Origin: Armatimonadota bacterium
GTDB taxonomy: Bacteria; Armatimonadota; Fimbriimonadia; Fimbriimonadales; ATM1
Assembly: GCA_003577165.1 (NCBI GenBank)
Contig: QEUM01000003.1
Location: 1-64,000, forward strand
Direction of reading: 5' to 3'
DNA: 64,000 nt
Both the position numbers and the translations under genes were made by a program. Positions 4,569-52,668 of the stretch are shown here, one piece after another. Under the pieces are notes generated by a model. The model was given only the letters and a program-made list of their open reading frames with translations. It was not told where the DNA came from and ran no database searches. Every line of letters begins with the position of its first letter. Positions within the stretch are counted from its first letter, which is position 1.

Positions 4569-6195
4569 GTTTCCACATCCCCGCCTCGACAGGCGACACT
4601 TTCCAAGTCGCGATTCGCACATCCCCTTCGGCTGCGATGCGCTCCACAGACGCGATGTTCGAAATCGGCGACACGGTCGCGCCATCCGGCAGCACGAGAC
4701 GAACCACGCTCTCCTTGCCGAACGGGCTCAACCCCGACAGTTCCGCTCCGTCGGCGAGGGGAACGAAGGTCGCGTCGGGCGAGAGCAAGCGCACGGGTGA
4801 AGCGATGCTGGCCCACCACTCCGGCGGCTTCGCCTGAAGCGTCGCCAGCCTCGGATAAACCCAACTTCGCAACTCGCCCAAAACGTCTGCAGCCCCTGCG
4901 GCGTTCGCCATCGCAGCGAGAAGGCGACTCTGCTCGTCGCCGCTGATCGCGCCGGCAATTGCGAGGATCGCAGCTGTCTGTTTGCGCTCCGCGTCGTCTT
5001 TGCCGATCGGCAACCAAGACACCCAGTCTATGGACGCCAGCAATCCGGCCAACTCGCCGTCACTTCCCTCGCGAGCCATGGATCCGAGCGCGTGGGAAGC
5101 CGCGAGCGACGCGCCGCTCCCGTCCCGCGCGCAGAACAACGTGAGTTTCGTGACGGGCTCCTGTGTGCGCGGGGCATCTGACAGAAATTCATCGTGCGCG
5201 TCTGTAAGGGCGCGGATCGTCAAATCGTCGGCCTGTCCCAGCAAAACGGAAAGCGCGGCATCGCACACGGACTCCGCGTCGGCATAGGCCACGGTTCCAG
5301 GTCGAAACGGATCTTCGCCGTTCCAGACGAGAGCAAGTCCGGGGTACAGAGGCCTGCACAGAAATCGCAGCGTCAGTTTCTTCTCAAGGCTCATCCGCAA
5401 CCCAGTGCCCCCCCCAAGTGTCGCCCGCTTGTAAGGCGAAGCGACCTTGAGCAGGCCGGACGATGAAGCGCGGAACGCAACCTCCGGGATGACGGCGAAT
5501 TCGGTGTCGAAAGTCCAGGTCGCGGTGATGCCGTTCGAGTCCACGACCGTCTCGACGCTCTGCACTTTCGGCGCGGGCCTCAGGAGTCGTTCTGCGATGG
5601 ACGAAACCTGCTGCGCCACTTGGCCAAGCGCCGCCGCACCGTTCACCGACAGGGAGTCGTTTCCGTAGGGCGTCCGAATTCGCGCCCAGCCTACGTAGGG
5701 CTTCGTCGTCTTCACGCGAAATCCGCCGTCGGTCCTCTCCGCGATCAGCCCGCACGGCCGGGTGGCGAATCCGACGAAGATCGGAGGGCGCTTGTCTGGC
5801 CAGGTGAGCACGACCCACTTCACGTCCGGCGTCGGCAACCCCGGACGCACGCTCGCATCCGCCCAGGTCAGAGTCGGCGGTCCGACTCCCGAACCAGTCA
5901 ATGTGAGCCCGTCTCGGCACTCCACGGAGAAGCCGAGTCCGGTGGCTTCGTAGGCGAGTCGAATGGGCGAACCGGGCGCCGGGCGCATCGAGATCGCTTT
6001 GAAATAGCGCGACACGCCCTGGAAACTGACGTCCTTCGTCTCCGTGCCGAACCGAATGGCCACCCCCCCCTCGGCGAATGGCCGGAAGTAAGTCGGCCCA
6101 ACTTCCATCGTGTGGAGATTGTGGACGTGTGTAAACGCGAACTGTCCGAACCCGCCGGCCGCGCTCGCAGCCGCGAGGCTAACGGATAGGAACAT
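4462..6195 (-). CDS. Secreted 577-aa protein, last gene of the exoprotein operon (unknown function)
   Basis: The start overlaps the end of the upstream barrel gene by 17 bp, so it is probably translationally coupled to it. Residues 1-15 are a short hydrophobic leader (M-F-L-S-V-S-L-A-A-A-S-A-A). The first half is beta-rich and may hold carbohydrate- or protein-binding sandwich folds. Residues about 310-430 look helical (T-I-R-A-L-T-D-A-H-D-E-F-L) and the end returns to a beta-like segment. No catalytic motif or known family is recognised. Its 3' end runs 107 bp into nadB on the opposite strand. Two C8 tracts (5408-5415, 6063-6070) lie in the gene but do not break it. As the distal gene of a six-gene exported-protein operon it likely acts in the envelope or outside, but this is inference from context. 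Confidence 0.75.
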   Translation of the reverse strand: MFLSVSLAAASAAGGFGQFAFTHVHNLHTMEVGPTYFRPFAEGGVAIRFGTETKDVSFQGVSRYFKAISMRPAPGSPIRLAYEATGLGFSVECRDGLTLTGSGVGPPTLTWADASVRPGLPTPDVKWVVLTWPDKRPPIFVGFATRPCGLIAERTDGGFRVKTTKPYVGWARIRTPYGNDSLSVNGAAALGQVAQQVSSIAERLLRPAPKVQSVETVVDSNGITATWTFDTEFAVIPEVAFRASSSGLLKVASPYKRATLGGGTGLRMSLEKKLTLRFLCRPLYPGLALVWNGEDPFRPGTVAYADAESVCDAALSVLLGQADDLTIRALTDAHDEFLSDAPRTQEPVTKLTLFCARDGSGASLAASHALGSMAREGSDGELAGLLASIDWVSWLPIGKDDAERKQTAAILAIAGAISGDEQSRLLAAMANAAGAADVLGELRSWVYPRLATLQAKPPEWWASIASPVRLLSPDATFVPLADGAELSGLSPFGKESVVRLVLPDGATVSPISNIASVERIAAEGDVRIATWKVSPVEAGMWKLRIRLAPGGAVPKAARGPRYSEGRRSPSGLLLIAR

Positions 6196-8107
6196 TCAAC
6201 AACTGGAACCCGAACTTCTGTCGGTCGAGGGAGTAAGTAACTCCGATTTCTCGAGTGCCGAGCCTGTAGCCGAGGAACATGGTGGTGTCGCGATACTGAA
6301 TTCCCAAGTACTCATCGAGCGTGAAAGAGCCGCCCACTCGCCATAAGGAACTGATTCGCCAGTATCCGTCCACAAACGCAGTCGTGCTGTCAATGTCCAG
6401 GCTCGTGCCGCCAAAGAGGCTCAGGCTGACATTACCAGCATCGAGGTAGTAAGTCCCCGAGACTCGGTGCTTGCCCATGAAGGAAGACATGAAGCTGTCA
6501 TCCGTGTAGTCGTACGACACTCGAAGGCTGCTGTTGGGGCCGAGTGGCGTCGCAACACCAAGCGTTCCGATGACGCCGATGTCATCACCGGCGTTTTTGC
6601 CCCAGAGCCTCGACAGCGTAGCCGACGCGGTCAAGTTCGCGCCAGTCCAGAGTGGCTGCGGCGTGAGGACGAACTGCGTGCGAAGTCCCGCGCCTTCCTG
6701 ATCGCTCGTCGTGGGCCCGTAAACGACATGCGACGAGTTCGCGGTGAGTCCAACCGTGTAACTCAGGGGCAGATCGCCGAGTCTCTGCATGTTGGTCGTG
6801 ACGCTGAAGTCGAGTCGCTGGGTTTCATACGGCGTCCCGCGAAGGGATCGGCTGCTCGTCCCGCTTAGCGCCATGTTGAACCCTTCGAAGGCGCGGCTCA
6901 AAGTCAGCGCTCCATACAACGTTCTGAAACCTGGAAAATCAATGCTCGCATTTGCAGATGTTCGATCATCGAAGCGTTGCGTGTGGCGCCAATTGATCCC
7001 CATGTCGTCCCGGCCGATGCCGGTGAGAGTGAAACTCCCCTCCATGGTGTCGCCCTTCATGTAACTGTTCTCCCACTCCATGAAGAGACCCGAACTCGCC
7101 GTCGCCCCCCTCCCGTAATCCTGACCGCTTCGAAGCCTCAACACGCTTTTGAAACTCGGCGAAAGGCGCACGTAGTAGGGGTAGTTCAGAACGAGTGCGT
7201 CGTTCTGAAAACTGACGATCTGGTCGCCGATGATCCCGGAATCGGAGTGAGGGCGAATCGCGTAGAGCGGCATACCCAACACCTTCGTGTCCCCAACGTA
7301 CAGTTCCGCTTGATGGAACTGCACTTCGCGATGCGGGAAGATAACGGCTCGGTTGGCGTGCACGCTCGACGAGGCGACGCCGATGTCTGCAAACTCGTAC
7401 TCGTTTGCCGGCATGCCGTTATCCGACAGAGTTCCTTCTGCTGCGGTGAGCACGTAGTATCCAGCGCGGCCGTCTATGACTGCAATCGCGCTGCCTCGCC
7501 GCCGGTTGAGCAAGTACCGGAGCCGTCTGCATTCGAGAGTCTTCTCGCCCACTCGGAGGTTCGCATCGGTTGCGATCACCACCATCGTGGAGACGTTCAC
7601 TTGGAGGTCCTTCGCTTCGATCGTGATGTCTTTGAATCGGATCTTTGGAAGTTCCGTCTCGCCGGATGCCGACAGAGTGTCGATCTCAGGGAAATACGCG
7701 AGGTACTCGGGGCTGTCGATTTCGATGTACTGATTAAGTGATGCGAGCGTCGCTCGGTCCTTGACGAATTCGATGTCGATGGAATTGATGATCCCGACGC
7801 CTGTCGCGGAAGCCGTGACTTTCGCTACGCCCGGAATCGTCGGCGCGACGAGCACTGCACGCGCGGTACCCGAAGTCGTCTGCACGTCCTGTTGGCGAAA
7901 GGTGCCGGCGCTGGTCGTGAAGCGCACGAGCGTTCCGTCCGAGGGCACCTGACCGCTTGAGGTTCGCACGTCCGCCGTGATGGTGACGGTCGAGTAGCCG
8001 TCCGCGATCGAGATCGCCGGGTGGGCCGTCAACTTAATCGAGCCTGCGCAGAATGCGAGCGCGCTTGCGGACATGCAGATCGCCAGCGTCCAGAACCGGA
8101 GCAACAT
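6179..8107 (-). CDS. LptD/OstA-like outer-membrane beta-barrel protein with N-terminal Ig-like domain
   Basis: 642 aa. Residues 1-21 are a signal peptide. Residues about 22-115 look like a bacterial Ig-like (invasin Big_1-type) domain, with V-P-S-D-G-T-L-V-R-F-T-T and V-A-K-V-T-A-S-A. Residues about 150-320 resemble the OstA/LptA beta-jellyroll (I-R-F-K-D-I-T-I-E-A-K-D-L and R-A-V-I-F-P-H-R-E). From about 325 to the end, alternating aromatic/polar strands suggest an outer-membrane barrel, ending in strand-like segments. It resembles organic-solvent-tolerance proteins but is shorter than typical LptD, and the Ig-like N-terminus is unusual. It could be an LPS-type transporter or a dedicated export pore for this operon; the latter is speculation. 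The ATG follows GGAGGTAAC and overlaps the upstream stop as TGATG. Confidence 0.75.
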   Translation of the reverse strand: MLLRFWTLAICMSASALAFCAGSIKLTAHPAISIADGYSTVTITADVRTSSGQVPSDGTLVRFTTSAGTFRQQDVQTTSGTARAVLVAPTIPGVAKVTASATGVGIINSIDIEFVKDRATLASLNQYIEIDSPEYLAYFPEIDTLSASGETELPKIRFKDITIEAKDLQVNVSTMVVIATDANLRVGEKTLECRRLRYLLNRRRGSAIAVIDGRAGYYVLTAAEGTLSDNGMPANEYEFADIGVASSSVHANRAVIFPHREVQFHQAELYVGDTKVLGMPLYAIRPHSDSGIIGDQIVSFQNDALVLNYPYYVRLSPSFKSVLRLRSGQDYGRGATASSGLFMEWENSYMKGDTMEGSFTLTGIGRDDMGINWRHTQRFDDRTSANASIDFPGFRTLYGALTLSRAFEGFNMALSGTSSRSLRGTPYETQRLDFSVTTNMQRLGDLPLSYTVGLTANSSHVVYGPTTSDQEGAGLRTQFVLTPQPLWTGANLTASATLSRLWGKNAGDDIGVIGTLGVATPLGPNSSLRVSYDYTDDSFMSSFMGKHRVSGTYYLDAGNVSLSLFGGTSLDIDSTTAFVDGYWRISSLWRVGGSFTLDEYLGIQYRDTTMFLGYRLGTREIGVTYSLDRQKFGFQLLNVPIR

Positions 8108-48790: not shown

Positions 48791-48878
48791 TCAAACGGCC
48801 CGTGGCATAGCCCAGAAGGCCCAGTGTGGGCGCCAAGATGAAATCCCGGGCACTCCATTGCGTCTAAGAAGGTGGACT

Positions 48879-49502
48879 ATGCGCGAGATGAGGAGACGCC
48901 TCAGTTCGATGATCGCCCTCGGATTGACCGTGGGCGCGTTCCTGTACATCTCCGCCCTCGGCCCAGACCCGGGTGCAGGCGACCTCCCGTCCGACGCAAA
49001 GCCCATTCGAGTCACACCAGTGAACCAAGCCGGAGCAAAGGCCCCCGAAAGTGAGTGGTTGGGCACGATGTCGCGCGCGGAGTTCCCCGCGACCGTCGTG
49101 GTTCGCTCCGAAGGCGCCTGGAAGGCGTTCTGGCGGCGATGCCACCCCGGAGATCCGCCGCAGGTGGACTTCCGCAAGAACTTCATCCTCGGCGCCTACG
49201 CAGGGAGGCAGACGACTGGCGGATACTCCATCCACGTCGTGGCCATCGAAGAAACGCCGACCGAGTTGGTCGTTCGCTTCGAAGTCACGGTGCCGGGGCC
49301 GAACGACATGGTGACCCAGGTGCTCACATCGCCCTATCACCTCAAGGTCGTCCCCCGATCGAATAAGAAGATCCGGTTCGAAGGCAAGGTGCTGGAGCCT
49401 GCGGGTCTGAGCCCGTCTGAGCGCAGGCGCTTCACCGAGTCTGCCGCTTCCTACTTGCGCAGTTTCTGGAAGCTGGACCTCGGCGGCGAAGCGGCCATCT
49501 GA
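48879..49502 (+). CDS. PrcB-C-terminal-domain secreted protein
   Basis: 207 aa from ATG 48879 (AGGTGG six bases upstream). Residues about 10-27 are a hydrophobic signal (M-I-A-L-G-L-T-V-G-A-F-L-Y-I-S-A-L). In the mature part the motif Q-T-T-G-G-Y-S-I-H-V-V-A-I-E-E near residue 110 matches the PrcB C-terminal domain of the protease-complex subunit in spirochetes, where the usual pattern is P-T-G-G-Y-x-I-x-I. The preceding V-D-F-R-K-N-F-I-L-G-A-Y fits too. PrcB helps PrcA/PrtP in Treponema, but stand-alone members are common and uncharacterised. No partner protease is next to it; the subtilase at 11.5 kb is remote. Confidence 0.75.
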   Translation: MREMRRRLSSMIALGLTVGAFLYISALGPDPGAGDLPSDAKPIRVTPVNQAGAKAPESEWLGTMSRAEFPATVVVRSEGAWKAFWRRCHPGDPPQVDFRKNFILGAYAGRQTTGGYSIHVVAIEETPTELVVRFEVTVPGPNDMVTQVLTSPYHLKVVPRSNKKIRFEGKVLEPAGLSPSERRRFTESAASYLRSFWKLDLGGEAAI

Positions 49503-49542: not shown

Positions 49543-50952
49543 TTGAAGTCACAGGCGCTTTGGAACCTCTTCTGGGTCGGTCTTAAGCCCGCAGCCCAGT
49601 TCTTGGTTGGCGCGGTTCTCCTCGGCTTCGACGCGGCCCTGTCGGGAGAGTACTACTCGGCCCTTCTCGTCTGGACGGTCGGATTCGCTCTCTGTGCCCC
49701 GATCATCGAGCGGCACGTCGTCAGCCTCGCGCACCGGCAGAACGCGCCGGTCGGCGTCGCATGCAGGGCGCTGTTCTGGCGAATTCTGATGCTTGGCGGC
49801 GCAGCGGCGCCGGTCGCTGCGATCGCGATCTCTTGGGCGACTTCGATGTCCGTCCCACAGGCGCTCGCTCTGCTTGCGCCAGGAGTCGTGAGCGGCACAT
49901 CGGAAGCGATCCTCTGGGCGATCCATGCCGAAAACGGCGACTACAAGAAGTTGGCGGCAACGCGCGGCATCTCCGTCGTTGCGTTCACTCTTCTCGTCGC
50001 TTGCTTCGCGATATATGGCAACACGATCCTGATTCTTGCGGCCCTTGGTGTCGAGAGTTTGATCGTCGCCAGCGCGACCGTTCGCGAACTTTCAAAAGTA
50101 AAAGCCCAGCCATTCGCCACCGAATTCAAAAGGCTCTTCGGCTTCTGGACTCTCAAGATCGTGTCTTACGCCAATCAGCAGAATGAGGCATGGCTGATTC
50201 TCGGCGCGCTATCTGCTCCCTTGCTGGCAACCTACCGCGTCGGCTCAACTCCCAAGACGATCGCAATGCTGCTCGGAGGCGCGATCTTGCAGCCGATCCT
50301 CTTCCGCGTCGGCTCGCAGAGTTGGGAGGGGGGGCGGCATGCGGGTCAACTGCAGGCTCAACTCGCAACTGCCGTTCTCATCGCGGGCAACAGTGTAGTC
50401 TGCTTACTCATCCTCTTGGCCGTGGGCCTCTTCCCTCAGTTGCGTGCCCCCTACGGAGAGGCGATGCAGATCGCGGTCGTCCTGGGAAGCGTGTTCTCGG
50501 GATTCAGTTGGTCGTCTCTGTTGGGAGCGTCCATCGTGACGAATGCGGGCCTCATTCGACTCCCGATTTACGCGCACTTGTCGTCCATCGCGATTCGGTG
50601 CGCTCTATACGCTTACCTGATCGCGAACCAAACGACTTCAGTGCTCCTGGTCGTGCTCATCTCCGAGTCCGCGTCCTTCATCTGCACCGCAATCTTCTGG
50701 CGGCCGATCCTTGCGCGCAAGCTCTGGTCTCTCTCTCCAACTGATCTCTCCCGGTGGGTGCTTCGCGGCGCATTGGGCGCGCTCGCCTGCTACTTGGCCA
50801 TCGTTGGGTGGGGCACTACTCTTTGGGTCGCCGCTGCAGCAGCCCTGCACTCACTGCTCATTCTGGAAGCGCTGGTTTCGGCCCATGGAAACAGGATCGC
50901 TTTACGGGGAAACCTCCAGCCAATCGTCCCACACAGTGGCGCCGCTGAGTGA
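49543..50952 (+). CDS. Polytopic membrane protein, flippase-like (MOP superfamily)
   Basis: 469 aa from TTG 49543. About 12 hydrophobic helices are spread evenly over the chain (for example P-A-A-Q-F-L-V-G-A-V-L-L-G and V-L-I-A-G-N-S-V-V-C-L-L-I-L-L-A-V-G-L-F). Helix number and spacing resemble polysaccharide flippases (Wzx/MATE-type, MOP superfamily), with V-G-S-T-P-K-T-I-A-M-L-L-G-G-A in the middle. No polysaccharide cluster is adjacent, so the substrate is unknown. The start codon is unusual, and the hairpin before it covers the ribosome site. The 3' end overlaps the convergent clostripain-like gene by 51 bp. Confidence 0.72.
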   Translation: MKSQALWNLFWVGLKPAAQFLVGAVLLGFDAALSGEYYSALLVWTVGFALCAPIIERHVVSLAHRQNAPVGVACRALFWRILMLGGAAAPVAAIAISWATSMSVPQALALLAPGVVSGTSEAILWAIHAENGDYKKLAATRGISVVAFTLLVACFAIYGNTILILAALGVESLIVASATVRELSKVKAQPFATEFKRLFGFWTLKIVSYANQQNEAWLILGALSAPLLATYRVGSTPKTIAMLLGGAILQPILFRVGSQSWEGGRHAGQLQAQLATAVLIAGNSVVCLLILLAVGLFPQLRAPYGEAMQIAVVLGSVFSGFSWSSLLGASIVTNAGLIRLPIYAHLSSIAIRCALYAYLIANQTTSVLLVVLISESASFICTAIFWRPILARKLWSLSPTDLSRWVLRGALGALACYLAIVGWGTTLWVAAAAALHSLLILEALVSAHGNRIALRGNLQPIVPHSGAAE

Positions 50953-52668
50953 GAGAAGCCCATACTCCGTCCAATAGGGCTGCGTTCCGGGCCCAAACTC
51001 CACCGACAGCCCGAAACTGTTCGGCGAAAGCGAGTTGTGCACGTTGTGCACGATTGCTGCATCGAACGCGCTGATGACGTTCGTGCAAGCGTTGTCGATC
51101 TCCGCGTTGTTGATGAGACCGCTCAGAATTGTTGTGAGATGCCGCAGGTCGCGATAGACGCGGAGCGACGTCGGGCTATAGGATTGCGCTTGCTGGCGCG
51201 CTGCGATGATTTCGTTGTTGTACGTGCCCTGGTTGTTGAGCAACGCCTGACCCAACCCACTCAGCGCTGTCGCAAGCCCCGGCAGCGCGCTTGTTCTGAC
51301 TGAGCTCTGCGTGATCTTGCGCGTCTCACCGTAGAACTGCAGCATCCCCGTCCCGAAGTGCTCCAACATGCTCTCCGTCGATTGGTCAGGATCTGTGCGC
51401 AGCGGGCCGAATACGAGATCGTAAGGCAGCCCCTCCCCGGGGGGACTCTCTTCGGAACCCACTACATAGTCGCAACGATCCTTGATCTCATATGCGACTT
51501 CGATCATCTGCATCAAACTCGCATCCCAAGACACGACATCGAGTCGGTCCGGCGTGTCGAGGGCCTGCGCGAGTTCATATGTTCGAATATAGGTGAAGAA
51601 CTCGTCGTCGAAACTGACGCCACGCGTTCCGCCGATGTTCGGATCACGAAGCCGCCATCCCGAACCATGATTCCAAATCACAAGCACGTACCGCTGCGCC
51701 GGATAATATGTTTGGACCCAACTCGCGAACTGACGCAAAGTGTCCTTGTTGCCCATGTCGACGGAGGTACCCATGTCCTGGATCAGTTCGCTTCGCACGT
51801 CATTCCACCCGTTGCCGCTCGAGTTGTCGTACTCGACGAGGTAACGTCGCGTGCCCGTCCATGGCGCGCCGAAGCCCAATGCCTGAACCCTCTTCCACTG
51901 CACCACGAACCTCACATCGGGGTTGTTCGCGACCCGCTCCATTTGGTTCACGTTTAAGTCACTGAACTGATCGAGGTCGTTCGCGGCGTTCATGAACACC
52001 ATGATCGTCCACTTGGTCGTCGTCGTGTTCGCCGCCTCGACCGTAATCACCGCGCTGTTGAACTGCCCCGAAGTCGTCTCCGTCGCTCGGACAATGCCCG
52101 TCCCTTGAAGTTGGCCCACCACGATGCCATCCGAGTTCACCGAGACTCGGTCGTTCAGCGCCTGCCACACGAACGAGCCTGGCGGCGTAAACGTCGCCAC
52201 ATCGGCCGCCGTCCTGGCCGTCGCGTAGAGCTGGATGCTCCGCTGCACCTGGATCGTCGCCGTCGCCGGGACGACGCGCACATGGTCCACGGCCCCCTGG
52301 GCGACCGTCTGGTAGGAGTTCGAGGTCCGTGAGACCTGGGCTTGGTCCCGCAGGACGCCCAGGACGGCCCCCTGGCCCCCAGGCTGTGAATACTGCGTGA
52401 CCTGGATCTCGTACACGCCGGAGGGAACGGAGTTGAAAGTGACCTGGGCGACCCCGCCGTTGTTGTCCATGCTCCGGAGGAGCACATCGCCCCCGCTGGG
52501 ATTGATGAGCCGAACGACCTGGCTTTGGGGGGTCGTGGCTCCCGTCCAATCGGTCGAATACAGGAAATTCAGGAGCGAAGGGCCCCCTCCGCCAGAGGTG
52601 CAGGACCCAACAAGAAGCAGAATGGGCGCGGCAAGGAGCGCTACGGTGAACCGGGGCATCGGCGGCAC
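50902..52668 (-). CDS. Clostripain-family (C11) lipoprotein with Ser in place of catalytic Cys
   Basis: 588 aa. Lipobox L-L-V-G-S-C near residue 23 and a Gly-rich linker indicate a membrane-anchored exported lipoprotein. Residues about 35-215 are Ig-like beta domains. The C11 peptidase domain spans about 215-480. It has K-W-T-I-M-V-F-M-N-A-A-N-D-L-D near its start and the catalytic His in V-I-W-N-H334-G-S-G-W. The second catalytic block reads V-S-W-D-A-S384-L-M-Q-M, where active relatives have D-A-C-L-M. The Cys codon is AGT (Ser) at 51517-51519. Other family features are intact, so the fold is conserved while the nucleophile is changed. It is divergent from rplU with 106 bp between. Confidence 0.85.
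   Translation of the reverse strand: MPPMPRFTVALLAAPILLLVGSCTSGGGGPSLLNFLYSTDWTGATTPQSQVVRLINPSGGDVLLRSMDNNGGVAQVTFNSVPSGVYEIQVTQYSQPGGQGAVLGVLRDQAQVSRTSNSYQTVAQGAVDHVRVVPATATIQVQRSIQLYATARTAADVATFTPPGSFVWQALNDRVSVNSDGIVVGQLQGTGIVRATETTSGQFNSAVITVEAANTTTTKWTIMVFMNAANDLDQFSDLNVNQMERVANNPDVRFVVQWKRVQALGFGAPWTGTRRYLVEYDNSSGNGWNDVRSELIQDMGTSVDMGNKDTLRQFASWVQTYYPAQRYVLVIWNHGSGWRLRDPNIGGTRGVSFDDEFFTYIRTYELAQALDTPDRLDVVSWDASLMQMIEVAYEIKDRCDYVVGSEESPPGEGLPYDLVFGPLRTDPDQSTESMLEHFGTGMLQFYGETRKITQSSVRTSALPGLATALSGLGQALLNNQGTYNNEIIAARQQAQSYSPTSLRVYRDLRHLTTILSGLINNAEIDNACTNVISAFDAAIVHNVHNSLSPNSFGLSVEFGPGTQPYWTEYGLLSLSGATVWDDWLEVSP

Follow-up and report, generated by a model that had tools for sequence, protein, structure and literature searches.

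The gene at positions 50902-52668 of the window (the whole 64,000-nucleotide stretch of DNA analysed here) encodes a homolog of clostripain (family C11) in which the catalytic Cys is replaced by Ser (Ser384). This replacement is common to much of the phylum Armatimonadota. We propose, at about even odds (probability ~0.5) and on the basis of sequence comparisons, that the protein is a surface lipoprotein peptidase with the clostripain fold, which uses Ser384 as its nucleophile and belongs to a serine branch of clan CD. Taken together with a coupled Ser-Pro change at positions 408-409, the swap speaks for a catalytic chemistry that has changed naturally, rather than for decay or error. Three aspects were beyond what the first-pass annotation of the window could see: the spread of the trait over the phylum, its reversibility and its coupling to Ser408-Pro409.

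The gene and its protein

The profile of Pfam Peptidase_C11 (PF03415) matches residues 224-546 with an E-value of 3.3e-39 (135.9 bits, cut-off 25.8). The AF2 model of the 588-aa protein (mean pLDDT 91.3, pTM 0.89) is poorly ordered only at residues 1-26 and in the loop ~331-350, and a Foldseek search of the PDB reported clostripain (9cip) and other C11 structures first (the top ten are all C11), followed by Ig-like domains matching the N-terminal part. The motifs of the protein read WNHGSGW ... SWDASLMQMIEVAYE, and the second block, WDASLMQM, carries Ser384 (Table 1).

Table 1. Features of the serine-type clostripain homolog, in window coordinates
Feature	Positions	Strand	Remarks
Serine-type clostripain homolog gene	50902..52668	-	588 aa, GTG start, stop 50902-50904
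Lipoprotein signal peptide, residues 1-23	52600..52668	-	lipobox VGSC with Cys23; predicted from sequence
N-terminal all-beta part, ~residues 31-213, Ig-like by fold	52030..52578	-	AF2 secondary structure; Foldseek: LigB and other Ig domains
C11/clostripain-fold domain, ~residues 216-588	50905..52023	-	Pfam; Foldseek top matches all C11
Catalytic His334 in WNHGSGW	51667..51669	-	invariant in 170/170
Presumed activation loop, residues 339-349	51622..51654	-	Arg339/Arg349 align with clostripain Arg181/Arg190
Asp382, S1-pocket acid	51523..51525	-	equivalent to PmC11 Asp177 and clostripain Asp229; invariant (PMC4850288, PMC11296011)
Ser384, nucleophile position	51517..51519	-	codon AGT (plus strand: ACT)
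Ser408-Pro409, coupled to Ser384	51442..51447	-	coupling counted over 170 C11 domains

The first-pass annotation had described an intact His motif and a Ser, codon AGT at 51517-51519, in place of the C11 Cys; both readings hold, with the gene on the minus strand, which that annotation did not give. Decay, against which it had cited the preserved fold and lipobox, is excluded by the confidence of the model and by purifying selection on the Ser-type genes (median dN/dS 0.13 over 71 close pairs). A lipobox-like motif occurs in 115 of 138 Ser-type relatives.

No second Peptidase_C11 gene was found in the 2.75-Mb genome of the window. The same genome contains four clustered Peptidase_C14 (caspase-like) matches (contig C22, 286641-302565, loci L277-L280); wherever their His motif was read, it is an intact SGHG. 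The C11 gene and a convergent ORF (49543-50952) share 51 bases at their 3' ends (50902-50952); this ORF by sequence encodes a membrane protein and has no Pfam match. At 48858-49502 on the plus strand, 1.4 kb from the C11 gene, lies a gene whose product looks secreted and contains a PrcB_C domain (Pfam E-value 1.6e-15), named for a protease-complex partner; no conserved linkage of this gene with the C11 gene was seen among relatives. Analysis of the gene neighborhood revealed no functional partner, only synteny with the rplU-rpmA region, which supports orthology and not function.

Serine and cysteine at the nucleophile position

Of 41 relatives, 34 carry C11 homologs, as do 94 of the 113 genomes examined in the order and 200 of the 255 that were sampled across the phylum; the matching loci belong to Armatimonadota, Fimbriimonadales and Chthonomonadales among them. 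In 170 distinct Armatimonadota C11 domains, position 384 is occupied by Ser (138) or Cys (32) and by nothing else (no Ala, Gly or Thr), and the occurrence of Ser at this position in the phylum is far beyond chance. His334-Gly335 and Asp382 are present in 100% of these domains, and Arg349, which matches a self-cleavage site of clostripain and falls within the flexible loop of the AF2 model, is kept in 94% of the Ser-type proteins. The first-pass annotation had allowed that orthologs might all have Cys, which these counts contradict.

In a scan of genome contigs, Ser was found at the nucleophile position in 75 of the best 80 loci, the five Cys loci coming from one member of Armatimonadetes and from four sources outside the phylum or unplaced: two MAGs (Thermoproteota and Deltaproteobacteria) and two ADurb.Bin243-like bacteria. 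Four C11 proteins from plasmid records (Bacillota, Actinomycetota, Cyanobacteriota and Pseudomonadota) all have Cys. The comparison outside Armatimonadota is a small sample, comprising four MAG loci, the four plasmid records and PDB chains.

The Ser384 codons of the 138 Ser domains fall into both classes, 78 AGY (AGC 65, AGT 13) and 60 TCN (TCG 39, TCC 9, TCA 8, TCT 4). Since Ser recurs with both AGY and TCN codons in relatives from many separate assemblies, a sequencing error is excluded; likewise, decay confined to the genome of the window is refuted by the 138 Ser-type relatives and by purifying selection. The sole point in favor of error or decay is that TGT and AGT differ by a single base, and we give this explanation practically no weight. 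According to the "two serines" idea, a mixture of AGY and TCN codons can be a sign of passage through Cys. We rejected this sign here: codon-class switches at position 384 number 8 overall and 6 within family f4, against 5-9 and 4-6, respectively, at the other conserved serines. Being no commoner at 384, they reflect constraint, not a Cys intermediate.

It had also been suggested that the true nucleophile may align elsewhere. The sole neighboring candidate is Cys383, directly preceding Ser384 (DCSLM) in several families (L010, L015, L016, L078 and others); it occurs in only 23 of the 138 Ser proteins and is therefore rejected as an alternative nucleophile.

Ser-Cys switching on the tree

A tree of 143 C11 domains, calculated with the nucleophile column left out, requires 8 Ser/Cys changes, and no fewer than 5 of them are imposed by well-supported branches; a tree rebuilt without columns 384, 408 and 409 again gave 8. 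Five Cys proteins (L020, L067, L036, L064 and L118) are nested within family f4, so on this topology Cys was most likely regained there. Three of them (L064, L067 and L118) lie next to rplU-rpmA in the divergent arrangement that Ser-type genes also show, which identifies them as orthologs, not imports.

One genome (G047) carries two tandem C11 lipoprotein genes (L118:3316-5079 and 5132-6892), one of the Cys type (L118; DACDMQM/SEELTP) and one of the Ser type (L061; DASLMQM/SEESPP), which form a natural matched pair. Two sister proteins on the tree, one with Cys and SPP (L172) and the other with Ser, SEP and a DASEM block (L189), may mark transition states.

The coupled Ser408-Pro409 motif

A further result of this analysis is that Ser384 is coupled to Ser408-Pro409 in a loop beside the S1 pocket. 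Ser408 is present in 138/138 Ser proteins vs. 4/32 Cys proteins, and Pro409 in 137/138 vs. 1/32 (the Ser form reads SEE-SPP-G); the five Cys proteins nested in f4 have NT, LT or LV at these positions and lack both residues. When 108 conserved columns were compared over 5 phylogenetically independent pairs, Pro409 and Ser408 ranked first and second, changing with the nucleophile in 4.8 and 3.85 of the 5 pairs, and the next column scored 2.56. With 5 supported pairs, too few for a sign test to reach 0.05, the coupling is strong but falls short of formal proof.

Residues 408-409 align with Glu203-Thr204 of PmC11 (numbering counted from Cys179) and adjoin in the alignment the residues of the PmC11 S1 pocket, which comprise Thr204, Met205 and Asp207 (PMC4850288). 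In the AF2 secondary structure, the nucleophile strand is succeeded by one further strand and then by this loop. We considered whether the active-site loop is much more acidic in the Ser form and rejected the idea: net acid over residues 405-413 differs only slightly (2.66 in the Ser type vs. 1.97 in the Cys type).

Catalysis or binding

In the mechanism that we favor, Ser384 instead of Cys would act as the nucleophile and His334 as the general base, while Asp382 would serve as the S1 acid and confer a P1 preference for Arg/Lys. The enzyme may activate itself by cleavage after Arg349, perhaps also after Arg339, as clostripain is cleaved at Arg190 and Arg181 and has Asp229 in its S1 pocket (PMC11296011). 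We infer that Ser408-Pro409 on the adjacent loop could reshape the active site in a way that makes a serine functional. In papain-like enzymes a Cys-to-Ser change can retain activity if the site becomes more negative (PMC10318531), and the clostripain pocket is electronegative (PMC11296011). In PNT1, an ordinary C11 peptidase, the C136S variant does not support viability (PMC4850289); a bare swap may thus not work, which would make the coupled Ser408-Pro409 matter. A classical third catalytic acid was not identified in the Ser-type protein.

The main rival reading is that of a conserved pseudoprotease, whose cleft would bind peptides or proteins at the cell surface, with a non-catalytic Ser384 that together with Ser408-Pro409 would shape the binding site; by analogy with known cases we regard it as possible, with perhaps a third of the likelihood. 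SERA5 provides a precedent, having a conserved Ser for Cys with the other catalytic residues intact, activity that is undetectable and a tolerated S596A substitution (PMC4671257), while T. brucei MCA4 is called a pseudopeptidase in a statement cited within PMC4850289, and pseudo-orthocaspases keep an acidic S1 pocket, although they usually lose the His as well (PMC6426788). In Armatimonadota, however, the His is invariant and the activation-site Arg is largely retained, and position 384 has remained restricted to Ser and Cys through several switches. Were this residue non-catalytic, such confinement to two nucleophilic side chains, with the His and the activation site kept, would be unexpected, hence our preference for a serine nucleophile; the ~8 switches would likewise suit an interchangeable nucleophile. 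The first-pass annotation left three options, a serine variant, a pseudoenzyme or an error, of which the last has been dismissed above, and between the other two the evidence tilts towards a functional serine nucleophile.

Transamidase-type members occur in clan CD. The Ser form might be an active enzyme with other than endopeptidase chemistry, for instance a transpeptidase, amidase or esterase with surface polymers as substrates. Several Cys relatives have glutamate at position 409, and its replacement by Pro suggests that the specificity may have shifted. We consider this improbable, as the S1 Asp and the activation Arg are kept as in endopeptidases and no partner genes were found in the gene neighborhoods.

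Returning to the serine nucleophile, we suggest more tentatively that clan CD, so far listed as cysteine-type, possesses a natural serine-peptidase branch spread throughout the phylum, with several nucleophile switches, at least some of them back to Cys, each accompanied by the Ser-Pro change in the S1 loop that maybe enables the serine, and with Ser408 as a possible additional catalytic residue. Our literature search found no paper describing a serine-type C11 protein, and none naming clostripain together with Armatimonadetes.

It has long been asked how an enzyme can exchange its nucleophile without losing function on the way, since cysteine proteases are often inactivated when Cys is simply replaced by Ser. 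In this family the swap has apparently been made repeatedly, with both forms found side by side (as in the tandem pair) and marked by two coupled residues, so that what a serine needs in order to function in a caspase-like fold becomes directly testable. Should the Ser form be inactive, it would represent a pseudoprotease family of unusual size and conservation; in both cases, a family match would label the Ser proteins as cysteine peptidases.

Comparison with known systems

The window protein shows the features of C11 members (score above the Pfam cut-off, clan CD alpha/beta/alpha fold, His-Gly, S1 Asp at nucleophile -2 and a basic residue at the self-cleavage site) with the exception of the defining Cys of the Ala-Cys motif, where it has Ser384. 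As every C11 feature tested except the Cys is present, we file it as a serine-type C11 homolog and not as a C11 cysteine peptidase. Its score against the NCBIfam equivalog TIGR02806 (clostripain) is 50.3 bits, below the cut-off of 550.

Clostripain from Hathewaya histolytica (MEROPS C11, 9cip) shares with it the fold (Foldseek E-value ~1e-19, probability 1.0), the His-Gly motif, the S1 Asp and, in the profile alignment, Arg at both self-cleavage positions, but has Cys231 in place of Ser and SSPVVWG in place of the SEESPPG loop; the window protein also differs from it by a lipoprotein anchor and extra N-terminal beta domains. PmC11 from Parabacteroides merdae (3uws, 4yec) is similar in the layout of the dyad, in its S1 Asp177 and in the position of the S1 loop, and differs in its Cys179 nucleophile and in having Glu203-Thr204 at the positions of the Ser-Pro pair.

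Pseudo-orthocaspases (C14B, mainly Tyr-Ser dyads) likewise combine the clan CD fold with Ser at the Cys position and an acidic S1 pocket; their His, however, is usually replaced too (YS, FS, YA), whereas that of Armatimonadota C11 is found in all 170 domains and the activation Arg is kept, and assignment to the YS type of this C14 group was therefore rejected. Plasmodium SERA5 and other papain-like Ser-for-Cys proteins resemble the Armatimonadota family in that a Cys-to-Ser change is conserved and the other catalytic residues are retained, but SERA5 has a papain-like fold, outside clan CD, and was assayed as non-enzymatic (PMC4671257).
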